A stretch of 64,000 nt of DNA from an uncultured Pelagibacteraceae bacterium (GTDB lineage Bacteria > Pseudomonadota > Alphaproteobacteria > Pelagibacterales > Pelagibacteraceae): positions 1-64,000 of the forward strand of contig CACNEM010000001.1 in NCBI GenBank assembly GCA_902619495.1, read 5' to 3'. Position 1 is the stretch's first letter. The number at the start of each line of letters is the position of its first letter. Below the pieces are notes generated by a model. That model was not told where the DNA came from. It was given only the letters and a program-made list of their open reading frames with translations, and made no database searches. Of this stretch, positions 22,745 to 30,811 are shown in pieces. Position numbers and translations under genes: made by a program.

Positions 22745-23725
22745 TCAACCAGTTAAATTATTTAATAAATTTAACAATTTTTTAAAGTCAGGTGGTAATT
22801 TTGAGTCAAAACTCATTAATTTATCTGATCTCGGGTGAATTAATTCTAGGGTTTCAGCATGCAAAGCTTGCCCTTTTAAATTATTTAATTCAGAAAAAAA
22901 ATTTGCATTTATTTTCTTAAATTTCATATCTTTTTTCCCATATTGTTTATCTCCCAGTATCGAAGCACCTTTGAATTTTAAATGAACTCTAATTTGATGC
23001 GTTCTTCCAGTTTCTAATTGACATTCTATTAAACTGATTTTAGGAATATTTTTTATATTAAAAGATTTTAATGTTTTGTAATTTGTAATCGCTTTCTTTC
23101 CTTTCAAATCGCTTACAGCCATAAGTTGCCTATTTTTTTTATTTCTAGTAATAAAAGTTTCAATTTTTCCAGATAAAGGACGAATTATTCCCCAAACTAA
23201 GCATTTATATTTTCTTTTAATTGAGTGTTCACTAAACTGTTCACTTAATTTGGCATGAGAAAAATTATTTTTAGCTATTACCAACAATCCACTAGTTTCT
23301 TTATCAATTCTATGAACTATACCAGGTCTTAACTCTCCATTTATATTAGATAATTTATTTTTGTATTTATGAACTAAAGCATTAGCCAAGGTATTTTCGA
23401 AATTTCCAGCACCAGGATGTACAACCATACCCTTTGGCTTATTTATAATAAGTATGTCATTATCTTCATAACAAATATCTAAATTTATATTATATGGTTT
23501 AAGCTCCTCAGATTTTTTTTCTTCTAACTTAATTTTAATAGTATCATTTAACTTAATTATTTTTGATGGTAAGTTTAATATTTTATCGTTAATTTTAACA
23601 TTATTAGAGTCTATAATTTTTTTAATATTAGATCTTGTTAAATAATTAATTTTCTTTGATAAAAATATATCAAGCCTTGATCCCACATCTTTCTCTGAAA
23701 CTATGAATTTCATTGAGTTAATCAT
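22745..23725 (-). CDS. rluD: RluD-family pseudouridine synthase
   Basis: S4 domain followed by PGIVHRIDKETSGLLVIAKN and GRTHQIRVHL. Confidence 0.93.
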   Translation of the reverse strand: MINSMKFIVSEKDVGSRLDIFLSKKINYLTRSNIKKIIDSNNVKINDKILNLPSKIIKLNDTIKIKLEEKKSEELKPYNINLDICYEDNDILIINKPKGMVVHPGAGNFENTLANALVHKYKNKLSNINGELRPGIVHRIDKETSGLLVIAKNNFSHAKLSEQFSEHSIKRKYKCLVWGIIRPLSGKIETFITRNKKNRQLMAVSDLKGKKAITNYKTLKSFNIKNIPKISLIECQLETGRTHQIRVHLKFKGASILGDKQYGKKDMKFKKINANFFSELNNLKGQALHAETLELIHPRSDKLMSFDSKLPPDFKKLLNLLNNLTG

Positions 23726-23817
23726 GATTTAATCTTGATTATAGTCAAAAGTCTTGCTAGCTCAACTTTTCAAATGATTAATAGTAGATAATCCTATATA
23801 AGTTAATTATTAGTTGT

Positions 23818-23891
23818 GCGCCGCTAGCTCAACTGGATAGAGCACTTGATTTCGAATCAAGGGGTTATAGGTTCGACTCCTATGTGGCGCA
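23818..23891 (+). tRNA. tRNA-Arg (anticodon TCG)
   Basis: Cloverleaf by hand: acceptor GCGCCGC/GTGGCGC, anticodon stem CTTGA-TTTCGAA-TCAAG, T arm ATAGG-TTCGACT-CCTAT, discriminator A. Confidence 0.95.
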
Positions 23892-23912
23892 AATTTAGTA
23901 TCGAAAAAAAAT

Positions 23913-24827
23913 TTAAGTTTTTTTTCTCATTTCTTTTAGAATATTATTCGACAAAAGATGCTCCTTTACACCTATGTTGAGATTAGAAATAATTTTTTTC
24001 TTTTGAATATTCCTTAAAAAGACAGCCAAAATACATTCAATAGAGGTTTTTGTTGATTTGATTATTTTCTTTTTTTTACAAAAAATAAAATTATCTTGAG
24101 AATTATAACTATTAAATTTTATATAACCTCTTGAACCTATGATTTTAATATTTCTACTTTTAGATCCTGGATAATTCGAAAAATAAAAAAATAAATCAAT
24201 TTTTTTTTTTAAAAGCTTTACAAAAACTTCTTCAAATAAAAGACCATTTTTTTTTTCAAGTTTGTATTTAATTATTTTAAATTTTTTGATATCTCCACAA
24301 AATTTTATGAAAATTGAAATTGGATGAGAAATCCAGTTTTGAACTGGATAATATTTTTTTTTAACAGGGTATCTGGTGTTATCATTACCATAGTTTCCAA
24401 TAATCTTTTTAATTTTACCAATTTTATTTTCTCCAGAACTTAAAAGTTTAACTAGCTTTGGATCAAATGTATCTGAGTAATTGATTAAAAAAGATGATTT
24501 ATATTTCCTAAACAAGCTTTTAATTTTTTTTGATTGTGAGAAAGTTTTACAAAAAGGTTTTTCTATTAAAATAGGTACTTTTTTTTCTAAAAAAAATTTA
24601 GCATACCTATAGCTTACATCAAATTTTGTAGCGATTATTACTCCATCGATTTTAGTCAGGTATTTAAGGTCAGAGTAAGTTCCTCCAACGTTTTTGTTTT
24701 TGAAAAAGATTTTTCTTTTGTTTTTGACGATTATTTTAACAACATCTATGTTATTTTTTTTCTTTAAATTGGCAAAAAATCTTTGCCCGGCTGTTCCAAA
24801 TCCAATTATAGCTATTTTTTTTTTCAT
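23913..24827 (-). CDS. Gfo/Idh/MocA-family oxidoreductase
   Basis: MKKKIAIIGFGTAGQRFFANLKKK Rossmann N-terminus; GVIIATKFDVSYRYAKFFLEKKVPILIEKPF motif. Confidence 0.85.
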   Translation of the reverse strand: MKKKIAIIGFGTAGQRFFANLKKKNNIDVVKIIVKNKRKIFFKNKNVGGTYSDLKYLTKIDGVIIATKFDVSYRYAKFFLEKKVPILIEKPFCKTFSQSKKIKSLFRKYKSSFLINYSDTFDPKLVKLLSSGENKIGKIKKIIGNYGNDNTRYPVKKKYYPVQNWISHPISIFIKFCGDIKKFKIIKYKLEKKNGLLFEEVFVKLLKKKIDLFFYFSNYPGSKSRNIKIIGSRGYIKFNSYNSQDNFIFCKKKKIIKSTKTSIECILAVFLRNIQKKKIISNLNIGVKEHLLSNNILKEMRKKT

Positions 24828-24894
24828 AAAGTATTGGTAATATTTAAATAAATCTATATTAAATCAAAGTGTAAATTAAATCAGTGAAAAATTA

Positions 24895-25977
24895 ATGAGA
24901 ATATCAATTTTAGGTGGGGGAATCTTTGGTGTTACAACATTCTTAATATTAAGAAAAAAAGGACTTAATTGTTACCTTTACGAAAAAGAAAAAGAGTTAT
25001 TAAGTGGGGCGACAACGAAAAACCTTAATAGAGTTCACTTAGGTTACCATTACCCAAGAGACAAAGAAACAGTTTTTCAATCACAAAAGGGATTTAATTC
25101 TTTTTCAAAGATGTATGCCAATTCAATAATAAAAAAGTTTAACAATTACTATGCGATAGCAAACTCAAGCAAAGTCAAAAGCGATAAATATGAAAAATTT
25201 TTAAAGGAAACAAAGCTTAAGTACAAAAAAATAAGTCCAAAAAAATTTAAATTCAAAACACGAAATATTGAGAATATTTATGAAGTAAGTGAACCAGTTT
25301 ACTCTTGGAGCTTACTCAAAAAGCAGGTTAAAAAATTAATCGGAAAGGATATGAATAGAATTTTCTTAAATAACGAAGTTAAAAATCTTAAATTTGAAAA
25401 CGAAAAATACTCTTTTGAAACAGACTCTAAAAAAAAAATTTTTAACGATATAGTAATTAATGCAACATACGAAGGAAGTAATGAAATTTCAAAAAATATT
25501 AGCAAGTTGAAAAACTTTGAATACCAAGTTACTAACATAATGGAAATAAATAGTAAAAAATTTAAGTCTACCGGCTTTGCTCTTATGGATGGACCTTTTT
25601 TTTCTTTTCTACCTATGGGTACTGAAAAAAATAAACAAATATTATATCACGTGATATATTCAGTTTTAAAAAAAGAAACAAACAATAAATTTAAAAAAAA
25701 TTGGTTAAAGTTAAATAAAAATTTTAAAAAAAAAATTAGGTTGAGTAATTTGAGAACACTTAAAGATCTTAAAAAATATTTTCCTGAAATGGATGTTAAA
25801 AAAATAAATAAAAATTATATTAGCTCTAGAGTTTTATTGCCTAGAACCAAAAAAACAGCAAAAAGAATTTCTTACTTAAAAGAAAGTTCAAAAAATTATT
25901 TTGAAATATTTTCAGGAAAAGTAGACCATAGTGTAGACATAGCTCATAAAATATACAAAAAAATTAGTAAATTTTGA
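24895..25977 (+). CDS. FAD-dependent oxidoreductase (DAO-like)
   Basis: MRISILGGGIFGVTTFLILRKKGLNCYLYEKE dinucleotide-binding N-terminus; NRVHLGYHYPRD. Confidence 0.82.
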   Translation: MRISILGGGIFGVTTFLILRKKGLNCYLYEKEKELLSGATTKNLNRVHLGYHYPRDKETVFQSQKGFNSFSKMYANSIIKKFNNYYAIANSSKVKSDKYEKFLKETKLKYKKISPKKFKFKTRNIENIYEVSEPVYSWSLLKKQVKKLIGKDMNRIFLNNEVKNLKFENEKYSFETDSKKKIFNDIVINATYEGSNEISKNISKLKNFEYQVTNIMEINSKKFKSTGFALMDGPFFSFLPMGTEKNKQILYHVIYSVLKKETNNKFKKNWLKLNKNFKKKIRLSNLRTLKDLKKYFPEMDVKKINKNYISSRVLLPRTKKTAKRISYLKESSKNYFEIFSGKVDHSVDIAHKIYKKISKF

Positions 25978-25982
25978 TATCT

Positions 25983-26789
25983 TTATAAGCTTTCTTTATA
26001 AGAATTAACGTTTTGCGAAAATTCACCCCACCTTTTGTCGTATTGATGAACAAGTAAGTATGGTTTTCCAATATCATTTATTAGTCTAGATTTATCATCA
26101 AAAATTATCTTTTTTAAATAAAATACTGTAGCAACAGGTCCTTTACTATTAGAATGTAAGTAAAAATCTTTTATAATTTTTTTATGGACTAAATAATTTG
26201 CATGTCCTTGTTCACAACCTCTTCCCTCAGGATCAGGCCTGAAAGTTAAAAGATATTTTAATTTTTTTTTGTATTTATAATTTGAGCCATATTTTTTTAA
26301 TAAATCTAAATACTCAAGAATTTTATTATTTGATCCTAATACTGTGCCAGAACATAAAATAGTTTTATCACTAATATTGTCATATTCTATTTTACCATAA
26401 GTTTTTAAAATCCAATTTGAGTTGTAAGGACAATCTTTAATTCTATAATCTTCCAAAAAAAAATTTATTGGACTTTGATACTCGTATTCAAATGGATTTC
26501 CTTGGAAATATATGTCTCTGCTATCACATAACAAAATATTATTATAATTCTTATCTTTTAAATATGCTGAAAAAAGTTCATTTCTTTTATTTATAGTCTC
26601 ATTTTTATGAACTTTGGTTTTGATAATATTACAATTATATTGCTTTAATCCATTTTCTAAATTTTCGTTTTTATCATCAACAGCCACGCATATTTCATCA
26701 TTATAATATTTTCTAAGGCTTTTGATAAAAAACTCAATTTGATGAAAATTGTATCCTACGGCTGCTGTAAGAACTAAATATTTATTCAT
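25983..26789 (-). CDS. Uncharacterised GT-A-like putative glycosyltransferase
   Basis: LVLTAAVGYNFHQIEFFIKSLRKYYNDEICVAVDD and LLCDSRDIYFQGNPFEY (DxD-like DSRD). Confidence 0.55.
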   Translation of the reverse strand: MNKYLVLTAAVGYNFHQIEFFIKSLRKYYNDEICVAVDDKNENLENGLKQYNCNIIKTKVHKNETINKRNELFSAYLKDKNYNNILLCDSRDIYFQGNPFEYEYQSPINFFLEDYRIKDCPYNSNWILKTYGKIEYDNISDKTILCSGTVLGSNNKILEYLDLLKKYGSNYKYKKKLKYLLTFRPDPEGRGCEQGHANYLVHKKIIKDFYLHSNSKGPVATVFYLKKIIFDDKSRLINDIGKPYLLVHQYDKRWGEFSQNVNSYKESL

Positions 26790-26811
26790 AAAACTTATAG
26801 TTATAAAGAAA

Positions 26812-27627
26812 TCAAATTATCCATTCTTTTAAAATTTCTTGATTATTTACTATATACTCTGGAAAAGATTCGTCTACTTCTATTACTTTATATTTCATAT
26901 TTCGATTAAATAAATCTTCGTGCCGGTCTATCTTTAATCTTATATTTTTTTCGTCTATGAATTCTGGTTTATTAAACTCTTGGTGTGAGTAAGAAATTAT
27001 TTTCTTTTTAATTAAGGATGGTTCTTTCAAAAAACTAAAATGCCAACCACCATCTTTAATTAATTGAGGCTCTTTATCTTTAAAAAATTTCCAAAATGGC
27101 CTTTTTTTTGTTTTTAAATTTCTTAACCATTGAGGAGATTTTAAAAATTTTTTCTGACAAATTTTAGTTCCAGGCCAGTTCTTATCGGTTATATTTAAAA
27201 GATTTAATTTTGATTGAAAATTTTTTTGAATTAAACACGCATATCTCTTTTTAACATCAAATTCTTTTATTTTATAAGGATCAGGAATTTCATCTATATC
27301 AGAAATCATAATTAGATCATCAGGATCACAGTTTCTATAGCCTCTCTCTAATGAATTTCTTTGATATTGATCTCTCAAGTGATTGTCGTGCCAATTCTTT
27401 TTTTTTGATTTTACATTAATTGGCAAATCATCGATAATTAAATACTCAATTTTATCTTTAAATTTATCAAATTTTTTTATATCAAAATTAAGTTTTTTAA
27501 CATTGCCTGCATGGTCTCTTGTAGCTTCAGCAATTACAAATTTATCTACTATATTATTAAGAGTATTTAACCTTATTTCTAAAATTAAATCCTCGTCAAA
27601 GTACATAAAGCAATCAATTAATTTCAT
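26812..27627 (-). CDS. Glycosyltransferase family 17 (N-acetylglucosaminyltransferase-like)
   Basis: MKLIDCFMYFDEDLILEIRLNTLNNIVDKFVIAEATRDHAG, DLIMISDIDEIPDP and GGWHFSFL motifs. Confidence 0.8.
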   Translation of the reverse strand: MKLIDCFMYFDEDLILEIRLNTLNNIVDKFVIAEATRDHAGNVKKLNFDIKKFDKFKDKIEYLIIDDLPINVKSKKKNWHDNHLRDQYQRNSLERGYRNCDPDDLIMISDIDEIPDPYKIKEFDVKKRYACLIQKNFQSKLNLLNITDKNWPGTKICQKKFLKSPQWLRNLKTKKRPFWKFFKDKEPQLIKDGGWHFSFLKEPSLIKKKIISYSHQEFNKPEFIDEKNIRLKIDRHEDLFNRNMKYKVIEVDESFPEYIVNNQEILKEWII

Positions 27628-28321
27628 TTAATTTAGTAGATGTTGTAAATCCAATTTTTTTCCTATTCAAGTTGCTTGATGAGCAATGTAAACTTGTTCT
27701 GTCAAAAATTAGTATTTCTCCAAGTTTCCACTTGTATATCATATCAATCTCTAAACCTCTTAGATTTTCTATTTCCTCATGTTGCAAATACTTCTCATGC
27801 ATAATTTTATCAAATGGTTTTTTATTATATAATTCTATATGTTCAGACGATCTTTTATTATACCCTTCAGCGGCTAGTTCTCTTTCATTTATTGAAAATG
27901 TCGTGGAACATCCATAAAACCTATTTTTGAAAATTACTGTTTCGCCTTTATCAGATAATGGTAAGAGTGTTTGTTTATAAATGACCTTATCAAAATCAAA
28001 ACCAGTATCAACGTGAAGTGAAACAGGTTTGAAACTTTCTTGAAACAAACCTAAACTTTCATTTCCCATTTTATCTTTAGGATTGTCCATAGAAAACTCA
28101 CCAATAGCGGATTTTAATTTTTCAATGTAAATCTTTTGTAAATCAGGAAACAATTTCGTTGACCATTTTTTTTTAACAATTTTTTGTCTTTGATTATTAA
28201 CTTCAATCGGTAATTTTTGGTAAAGATCAATAAATTCTCTAATTTCATTCGAATTTAAAAAATTTTTTATTACATAAGGCTTTTCTTCATTATTTTTTAT
28301 TTTTTTAATAAATTTATGCAT
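27614..28321 (-). CDS. Putative 2-oxoglutarate/Fe(II)-dependent oxygenase-like protein
   Basis: HVDTGFD (HxD) and distal LIFDRTSLHCSSSNLNRKKIGFTTS (H...K) in a cupin-like pattern. Confidence 0.55.
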   Translation of the reverse strand: MHKFIKKIKNNEEKPYVIKNFLNSNEIREFIDLYQKLPIEVNNQRQKIVKKKWSTKLFPDLQKIYIEKLKSAIGEFSMDNPKDKMGNESLGLFQESFKPVSLHVDTGFDFDKVIYKQTLLPLSDKGETVIFKNRFYGCSTTFSINERELAAEGYNKRSSEHIELYNKKPFDKIMHEKYLQHEEIENLRGLEIDMIYKWKLGEILIFDRTSLHCSSSNLNRKKIGFTTSTKLNEIN

Positions 28322-29113
28322 TTATTCACCCATATTTATTAATGTTCCACGATTTTTTGCACCGGCATATGACAAATAAAACAAAATTACACCAAATATG
28401 AAATATAAAATTGATATAACTACAGCTTTGCTGATTTGATAATAACTAATTATATCGTAAATTAATATATTTCTCATTTCTTCAAAAATATAAACTAGTG
28501 GCAATAATTTAGCAGCTAATTGTAACCAACCAGGTAGTACTTCGATTGGATAATATATACATCCTAATGGAGCAAGAAAAAATAAACTTGCCCAGGCTAT
28601 ATTTTCAAAAGAGGGGCCAAAACGAACCAATCCTGAAGTAACCATAAGTCCGAGTGTTACACCAAATAAATATAATGTTACCAGCAATAGGATCAATGGT
28701 AGGCCTATTTTAAATATAGATACACCAAACAAAGGTATTGCTAATAAAGCTGCAGGTATTAGGCCAATTAATGTTCTAAAAATTGCTGTAAAAGTTAGCG
28801 CAGCTATTATCTCACTTAATTTAATAGGAGCAATGAAAAGATTAGTGAAATTTCTACTCCAGATTTCCTCTAAAAACATCATATTATAACTGATGCTTGA
28901 TCTAAATAAAAAATCATAAAGGATTGCAGCGCTTAATATAACACCAACCGTATTTTCAAAATAAGAGGAGTTCATTGTAAAAAATTTCGAGATAAAACCC
29001 CAAAGAAAAATTTGGATAGTAGGCCAATATATTAGATCAAGAATTCTAGGAAAAGATCCTTTTATTAAATATATATGTCTTAAACTTAAAGCAAATATTT
29101 TAGCCCAACTCAT
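28322..29113 (-). CDS. ABC-2 type transporter permease
   Basis: Multiple TM segments; ABC-2 signature region APLGCIYYPIEVLPGWLQLAAKLLPLVYIFEEMR. Confidence 0.88.
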   Translation of the reverse strand: MSWAKIFALSLRHIYLIKGSFPRILDLIYWPTIQIFLWGFISKFFTMNSSYFENTVGVILSAAILYDFLFRSSISYNMMFLEEIWSRNFTNLFIAPIKLSEIIAALTFTAIFRTLIGLIPAALLAIPLFGVSIFKIGLPLILLLVTLYLFGVTLGLMVTSGLVRFGPSFENIAWASLFFLAPLGCIYYPIEVLPGWLQLAAKLLPLVYIFEEMRNILIYDIISYYQISKAVVISILYFIFGVILFYLSYAGAKNRGTLINMGE

Positions 29114-29834
29114 TTTTACTCCTCGCGATTTTCAAAAAAGTTTCTTCAAGGTTTTTTCTACCATGTTTTTGAATTAATTCATTGCATGTACCGCTATCAA
29201 CAATTTCACCATCTTTCATCATTATTATTTTATCGCAAAGTCTTTCAACTTCTTTCATATTATGTGAAGCTAGTAAAATAGTTAGTTCATTTTTTTTTTT
29301 ATAGTTTTCCAGATATTCTCTCACAAAATCTCCTACGTCTGGATCTAGACTAGCAGTAGGTTCATCTAAAAATAATAAATTTGGCTTATTAATTAGAGAT
29401 TTTGCTAAAGCCACTCTATTTTTTTGCCCAGAGGAAAGTTCACCTGTTTTTCTTTCTAAAAAATTACTTAAATTTAATTCATCCGTCATTTCATTTATTC
29501 TTGAGCTAATTTTCTTCACTCCATAAAGCCTAGCGTAAACTTCAAGATTTTGTTTTACAGTGAGTTTTTTTGGAAGCTCAATATATGGTGAAGCAAAGTT
29601 CATTTTACTTAATAATCTAATTCTATTTTTAGGGTCTAAATTTATTCCATCAATAAAAACTTTTCCTTCAGTAGGTGTTATTAAACCAAGCATCATACCG
29701 ATTGATGTAGTTTTCCCGCATCCATTAGGACCTAAAAGTCCTAAAGTTGAATTTTTTTCAATTTGAAAATTAATTCTTTTGACAGCAATTGTATTTCCAA
29801 ATTTTTTTGTTAAATTTTTAACTTCTAATTTCAT
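29100..29834 (-). CDS. ABC transporter ATP-binding protein
   Basis: LGPNGCGKTTSIGMMLGL Walker A, LSSGQKNRVALAKSL signature, LLFLDEPTASLDP Walker B. Confidence 0.95.
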   Translation of the reverse strand: MKLEVKNLTKKFGNTIAVKRINFQIEKNSTLGLLGPNGCGKTTSIGMMLGLITPTEGKVFIDGINLDPKNRIRLLSKMNFASPYIELPKKLTVKQNLEVYARLYGVKKISSRINEMTDELNLSNFLERKTGELSSGQKNRVALAKSLINKPNLLFLDEPTASLDPDVGDFVREYLENYKKKNELTILLASHNMKEVERLCDKIIMMKDGEIVDSGTCNELIQKHGRKNLEETFLKIARSKNELG

Positions 29835-30811
29835 TAATTATAAGCTGCTTTTTTGATTCGATCATTAATTGCTAAACCAGGGCCCCTTTTAGGAATTTTC
29901 TGGATTTGTATCTTTTTAAAACCCATTTTTTTTATTTTTCTAAATAGCATATATAAATTTGAAGCTGCTTCTTTAAGATTAGATTTTTTACTTAAACTAA
30001 AAAAATTTTTCCTATTTGTATATTTATTACCCAGATAAATAAATGCGCTATTTTTGACAGGTTTTTTTTGATTAATTAGCACCGGTATACCTGGGGAGTA
30101 ATGTTTTTTTTGAAGACCTGGTGAGTTTATTTTAGAAATTTTTAAATTTGTTTTTATTTTCTCTTTTAATATTTTTTGAATTTTTAAATGGCTAATTATT
30201 CCAGGCCTAAGAAGTTTAGGATCTCTAGTTAAGTCGATCACTGTAGACTCTATTCCAATTTTACTTTTACCTCCATCAATAATTATCTTTAATTTATCTT
30301 TAAATTCATCATATACGTCTGTAGCTTTCACTGGACTTACTTTTGAAGAAATATTTGCACTAGGCATTGCAAGAGGAAAATTTAATTTTTTTAATATTGA
30401 CCTTAAATTTTTATGTTTTGGAAATCTTACGGCAATAGTTTTTAAATTTGCCGATGCGTTTGAAACAATTTTTGAATTAATCTTCCTTTTCAAAATATAC
30501 GTAATCGGACCAGGACCAAATTTTTTATAAATTTTTTTAAAATTACTGTTTATTTCAATATCTTTCAGTGCTCTATTAAGGTCAAAATAATGAATAATTA
30601 GAGGATTATATTTTGGCCTCTTTTTTAATTTATAGATCTTATTAATTGACGATTTTGAGTAAGCATTACCTGCTAGACCATATACAGTTTCTGTTGGTAA
30701 ACCGATAATTTTATTTTTCTTCAATAATATAACAATTTTACCAAGTATTTTTTTGTTAAAAGGAAATATATTTAAATAGATATTTTTCATAATGTTATTA
30801 TTATTTATCAA
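29834..30811 (-). CDS. L-threonylcarbamoyladenylate synthase (TsaC/Sua5 family)
   Basis: GLPTETVYGLAGNAY, PLAMPSANISSKVSPV and a C-terminal Sua5-like domain. Confidence 0.93.
   Translation of the reverse strand: MINNNNIMKNIYLNIFPFNKKILGKIVILLKKNKIIGLPTETVYGLAGNAYSKSSINKIYKLKKRPKYNPLIIHYFDLNRALKDIEINSNFKKIYKKFGPGPITYILKRKINSKIVSNASANLKTIAVRFPKHKNLRSILKKLNFPLAMPSANISSKVSPVKATDVYDEFKDKLKIIIDGGKSKIGIESTVIDLTRDPKLLRPGIISHLKIQKILKEKIKTNLKISKINSPGLQKKHYSPGIPVLINQKKPVKNSAFIYLGNKYTNRKNFFSLSKKSNLKEAASNLYMLFRKIKKMGFKKIQIQKIPKRGPGLAINDRIKKAAYN

Follow-up and report, generated by a model that had tools for sequence, protein, structure and literature searches.

The five genes beside tRNA-Arg(TCG) in this SAR11 Pelagibacter genome occupy a slot with conserved flanks and exchangeable contents, in which a GT17 glycosyltransferase is constant across the genus and a putative 2OG/Fe(II) oxygenase nearly so. 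Our analyses of gene families, predicted folds, operon structure, modular turnover and the co-inheritance of these two genes lead us to regard it as rather probable that the slot is a small replacement-type flexible island, located at the distal end of the tsaC–ABC operon and tailoring a surface glycan. SAR11 bacteria are very abundant in the ocean, and its strains carry differing gene sets in the slot, probably to vary their cell surface.

The slot and its flanks

The window, that is, the whole stretch of 64,000 nucleotides analysed, comes from an 870 kb assembly. The features that frame and fill the slot are as follows.

22745-23725, minus strand: rluD, the far flank of the slot
23817-23892, plus strand: tRNA-Arg(TCG), one edge of the slot (ARAGORN and Rfam)
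23913-24827, minus strand: P1, Gfo/Idh/MocA oxidoreductase (Pfam PF01408, GFO_IDH_MocA, 1e-13); rare optional cargo, divergent from P2
24895-25977, plus strand: P2, DAO-family FAD oxidoreductase (Pfam PF01266, DAO, 3e-8); rare optional cargo
25983-26789, minus strand: P3, putative GT-A-fold glycosyltransferase with a DSRD motif (predicted fold); optional cargo
26812-27627, minus strand: P4, GT17 glycosyltransferase (Pfam PF04724, Glyco_transf_17, 1.1e-18); constant Pelagibacter cargo
27614-28321, minus strand: P5, putative 2OG/Fe(II) oxygenase (predicted fold and motif); nearly constant cargo
28322-29113, minus strand: ABC-2 permease (YadH-like); ancestral flank, not cargo
29100-29834, minus strand: ABC ATPase; ancestral flank
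29834-30811, minus strand: tsaC, first gene of the operon, which the slot genes extend, with junctions at or near overlap

The original prediction placed five genes on mixed strands beside the tRNA, followed by an ABC-2 exporter pair, and our analysis agrees on their order, orientations and coordinates. Its family calls were borne out for the Gfo/Idh, DAO and GT17 proteins by Pfam, and for the GT-A-like P3 and the oxygenase-like P5 by predicted fold; the genes are indeed accessory and tied to glycan and redox chemistry. P3 and P5 have no significant match in Pfam, NCBIfam or PHROG. Homologues and conserved motifs over many genomes rule out chance ORFs. Their GC content (0.23-0.26; window mean 0.30) is close to that of rluD and tsaC (0.25 each), so that composition gives no strong sign of foreign origin.

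The start at 23756 that had been assigned to the cassette proved to be a short repeat: 12 nt from the 5′ part of tRNA-Arg recur at positions 23756-23767, 67 nt upstream of their place in the tRNA itself. The 9-nt core of this repeat is not doubled within 150 nt in any Pelagibacter slot locus retrieved. An integrase-mediated tRNA island was rejected, since the slot genes include no integrase, the 3′ end of the tRNA is single in the window and only the 12-nt 5′ copy was found. Phage origin was rejected as well. P5 and P3 have no relatives in viral contigs, nor does P3 have any in phage genomes, and viral relatives of the GT17 protein lie at only ~30%, mainly in Synechococcus phages.

The family as a whole shares the syntenic frame rluD–tRNA-Arg–slot–ABC permease–ABC ATPase–tsaC. 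The tRNA-Arg gene occupies the same place in 24/24 Pelagibacter loci checked and in 17/18 loci from other genera, one with the anticodon ACG. Our survey outside Pelagibacter covered 1-5 genomes per genus. It revealed an empty slot with both flanks (rluD/tRNA-Arg and permease/ATPase/tsaC) retained in genera g6 and g13. Elsewhere the rluD–ABC frame encloses transhydrogenase genes (g7; L244, L245), a TonB receptor (g12), genes for betaine/amino-acid transport (g5), a D-Ala-D-Ala ligase-like gene (g8), an aldehyde dehydrogenase (g15) or an epimerase (g14). GT17 lies in the slot of g1, g9 and g10, and P5 in that of g1 and g9. The ABC pair, originally counted as a member of the set, is thus syntenic even in genera with an empty slot or with unrelated genes in it, and is therefore older than the cargo and not cargo itself. 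Because other genera fill the slot with non-glycan genes, its location is by itself uninformative on function.

Slot contents and their turnover

In the genus, rluD was located in 133 of 169 genomes and the interval was retrieved from about 120. Contents were counted with one locus per genome (n=117, with GT17 and rluD). GT17 is present in every resolved Pelagibacter slot (117 loci), and P5 in 97/117, in the same operon as GT17; the 20/117 slots with GT17 and no P5 indicate that P5 is not obligatory. The FkbM methyltransferase (41/117) and P3 (16/117) are less frequent, and P1/P2 occur in 2/117 slots, those of the window's species and one other species only; P2 was found in 4/169 Pelagibacter genomes. 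Further optional genes encode another 2OG oxygenase besides P5 (c11, PF13640), an epimerase (c13), a protein without family assignment (c15) and a B12-binding radical SAM protein (c14), which is not obviously a glycan enzyme. The radical SAM protein lies beside GT17 in slots L049, L071, L119 and L240; it has 560 aa in Pelagibacter and a distant 543-aa relative in g10. At L094:6803-7984, the 3′ end of a c15 ORF crosses the tRNA-Arg gene in antisense.

The five genes had been proposed to form a single system, which the interval between rluD/tRNA-Arg and tsaC does not bear out: relatives do not all share the same five genes. The slot is instead layered: GT17 (plus oxygenase) forms a near-constant core, to which a third gene may be added and, rarely, the Gfo/DAO pair. 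Between rluD and the permease lie 918-4608 nt, and the window, with 4596 nt, is near the longest. Median gaps are 2 nt from the ABC permease to P5, 3 nt from P5 to P4, -1 nt from FkbM to P4 and 17 nt from P4 to P3. These overlapping or near-abutting cistrons suggest translational coupling of the cargo to the tsaC–ABC operon.

The redox pair stands somewhat apart. We give some weight, short of an even chance, to the idea that P1/P2 are an independent recent insertion, a divergent unit of their own that makes a modified sugar or amino acid with no connection to GT17 and P5; this would be compatible with the island reading. P2 is oppositely oriented, and the slot holds the pair in two species only. 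Moreover, distant P2 homologues adjoin Gfo/Idh genes, or lie one gene away from them, in two other Pelagibacter genomes, with no adjoining GT17 or P5. The glycan islands around these distant pairs contain GT2-like, CMP-sugar-synthetase-like and asparagine-synthase-like neighbours, named by sequence reading, as only the pair was profile-scanned. However, the order and orientation of P1/P2 are conserved in both species at 70-83% identity, implying retention over substantial divergence.

The core genes travel together. Among the 87 loci in which all genes are complete, P4 and P5 distances correlate with r=0.77, compared with 0.16-0.32 with the flanks (rluD, ABC genes), and the partial Mantel correlation of P4 and P5 given the flanks is 0.75, with 0/999 permutations as high. 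Co-divergence so far above the flank correlation argues that P4 and P5 are exchanged as a module. For this pair, the absence of co-inheritance, named at the outset as an outcome that would speak against a linked system, is refuted. GT17 proteins of type 1 are accompanied by P5 in 81/81 slots and by FkbM in 41/81, and those of type 2, the window's type, by P5 in 16/36 and by FkbM in 0/36. In FastTree trees built from one flank each, the GT17 type switches 8 times (permease) or 19 times (rluD), compared with about 29 times for shuffled labels, counts that tree error inflates. The presence of P3 is near-random on the flank trees, with 12 and 15 changes versus shuffled means of 14.9 and 15.3. The slot therefore has the marks of a replacement-type flexible island: its flanks are conserved, its contents are exchangeable and, within Pelagibacter though not across genera, similar in function, and these contents are discordant with the flank phylogeny, as seen in the GT17 type switches and the low flank correlation.

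A permissive insertion hotspot, where functionally unlinked genes simply land at the operon end beside a tRNA, would account for the unrelated cargo of other genera and for the near-random distribution of P3. We consider it unlikely as the whole explanation, because GT17 is fixed in the Pelagibacter slots, P4 and P5 co-diverge, FkbM occurs with type-1 GT17 exclusively (41/81 vs 0/36), and genome G060 has P4 and P5 together at another site as well, its lon locus.

The predicted glycosyltransferases and oxygenase

P4 belongs to GT17 (CAZy; PF04724) by sequence: it scores 67.9 bits against a PF04724 cut-off of 26, 8/8 divergent members match the model, and the acidic DxD-type motif is retained, with D110 and D112 in 119/119. 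The characterised member of GT17 is the eukaryotic MGAT3, while P4 is bacterial. Our searches found no papers on GT17 in SAR11. Outside the window, genome G000 carries a second GT17 gene (C1, about 128.6-129.5 kb; L209:8605-9495) flanked by lon and a long epimerase-like gene. Of the slot GT17s, the best-matching one shares 50% identity with it, and the same place in G060 holds a GT17-P5-GT17 set.

The AF2 model of P3 (pLDDT 87, pTM 0.87) supports a putative GT-A enzyme closest to GT6. Its top Foldseek matches are the GT6 alpha-1,3-galactosyltransferase and ABO enzymes (E about 1e-8, TM about 0.54), its DSRD motif falls, by eye, near the position of their DxD region, and the motif residues D89, R91 and D92 are present in 17/17. 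P3 nevertheless differs from GT6 in its 10-15% identity and a TM of about 0.5, and it has neither a Pfam glycosyltransferase match nor a PDB sequence match that would place it in the family. Searches for structural homologues at the sequence level gave none significant for P3, P4 or P5.

The AF2 model of P5 (pLDDT 82, pTM 0.83) supports a putative 2OG/Fe(II) oxygenase. Its top Foldseek matches are HygX (first), OkaE and WelO5 (E about 1e-6, prob 1.00), and the model has the double-stranded beta-helix fold of such enzymes, with a TM of only about 0.5. The HxD…H…K motif is strongly conserved, H103 in 96/97 and D105, H212 and K222 in 97/97, although its geometry is poorly modelled: residues 104-106 have pLDDT <50, the model being weakest exactly around the metal site. 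The sole exception in the 97, at L047:7321-8022, carries Gln where the others have the first metal-binding His. P5 thus resembles the HygX/WelO5/PhyH-like 2OG-Fe(II) oxygenases in predicted fold and in the HxD...H motif with a distal Lys, but shares only about 10-14% identity with them and matches no Pfam family above cut-off. The window protein matches no Pfam subfamily, and one P5 member reaches WelO5 at E 0.09. The 15 P5 loci found in named genomes are all from Pelagibacteraceae or Pelagibacterales. A P5 homologue with 45% identity in L201 (G336, genus g6) lies off the rluD/ABC frame, near an epimerase-like gene.

Proposed function and comparison with known systems

In the island reading that we favour, P4 would add a sugar from an activated donor, and P5 would hydroxylate or oxidise the same product. 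FkbM, in other strains, would O-methylate; in the window's slot, P3 would transfer a further sugar, and the redox pair P1/P2 may give a modified or epimerised one. The other slot genes FkbM, epimerase and 2OG oxygenase are likewise of glycan type, and the islands around the distant P2/P1-like pairs lend the reading further support. Swapping of alternative gene sets between lineages would let strains display differing epitopes at the surface, with pressure from phages or grazers as a plausible cause. We infer the acceptor, the linkage, any export, the location at the cell surface and this selective reason, and each is to be read conditionally.

The original prediction had a dedicated biosynthesis-and-export system in mind, in which GT17, P5 and their partners make a glycolipid or small polar metabolite for export by the ABC-2 pair. 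The cargo follows the permease closely on its 3′ side and the pair always flanks it in complete Pelagibacter slots, yet this is an unlikely reading, weakened because the exporter persists in synteny with an empty slot and with slots that contain transhydrogenase or other genes; in addition, permease distances track those of the ATPase and tsaC, not P4/P5, and the ABC pair matches YadH/DrrA-type models below cut-offs only, with no Wzm/Wzt polysaccharide-exporter model among its best NCBIfam matches. A search of titles and abstracts on yadGH gave nothing functional bearing on the slot.

A stronger form of the island reading holds that GT17 and the Pfam-less 2OG oxygenase are an undescribed two-enzyme glycan-tailoring module and P3 a new GT-A family, exchanged separately from the O-chain cluster as a second, independent locus of surface variation; we think this possible, at perhaps one chance in a few. 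Should the slot indeed tailor the cell surface, it would give SAR11 a second locus of surface variation, compact and trackable, whose linkage with phage susceptibility can be tested. Being small and having a fixed core, the slot is easier to genotype from metagenomic data than the large O-chain cluster, and it supplies two enzyme families lacking a Pfam assignment.

The open-access literature that we searched contains no description of the rluD/tRNA-Arg slot. As far as their gene tables show, it is not among the four hypervariable regions listed in 2007, and identity with HVR3 or HVR4 was rejected, as their listed genes do not match. The closest known system is hypervariable region 2 (HVR2) of SAR11, or O-chain biosynthetic cluster, a large replacement island for surface polysaccharide (PMC2217521, PMC11898729). 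There, too, surface sugar genes are exchanged between conserved flanks in Pelagibacterales, and the cluster contains oxidases, methyltransferases and glycosyltransferases, as the slot does. HVR2, however, spans tens of kb between the 23S and 5S rRNA genes, and has been relocated to a place beside tRNA-Val/Met genes in Ib.4 (PMC2217521, PMC11898729), whereas the slot measures 0.9-4.6 kb, is located at rluD/tRNA-Arg and has a fixed GT17 core. The slot is a small, previously unremarked case of a well-known kind of variable region.
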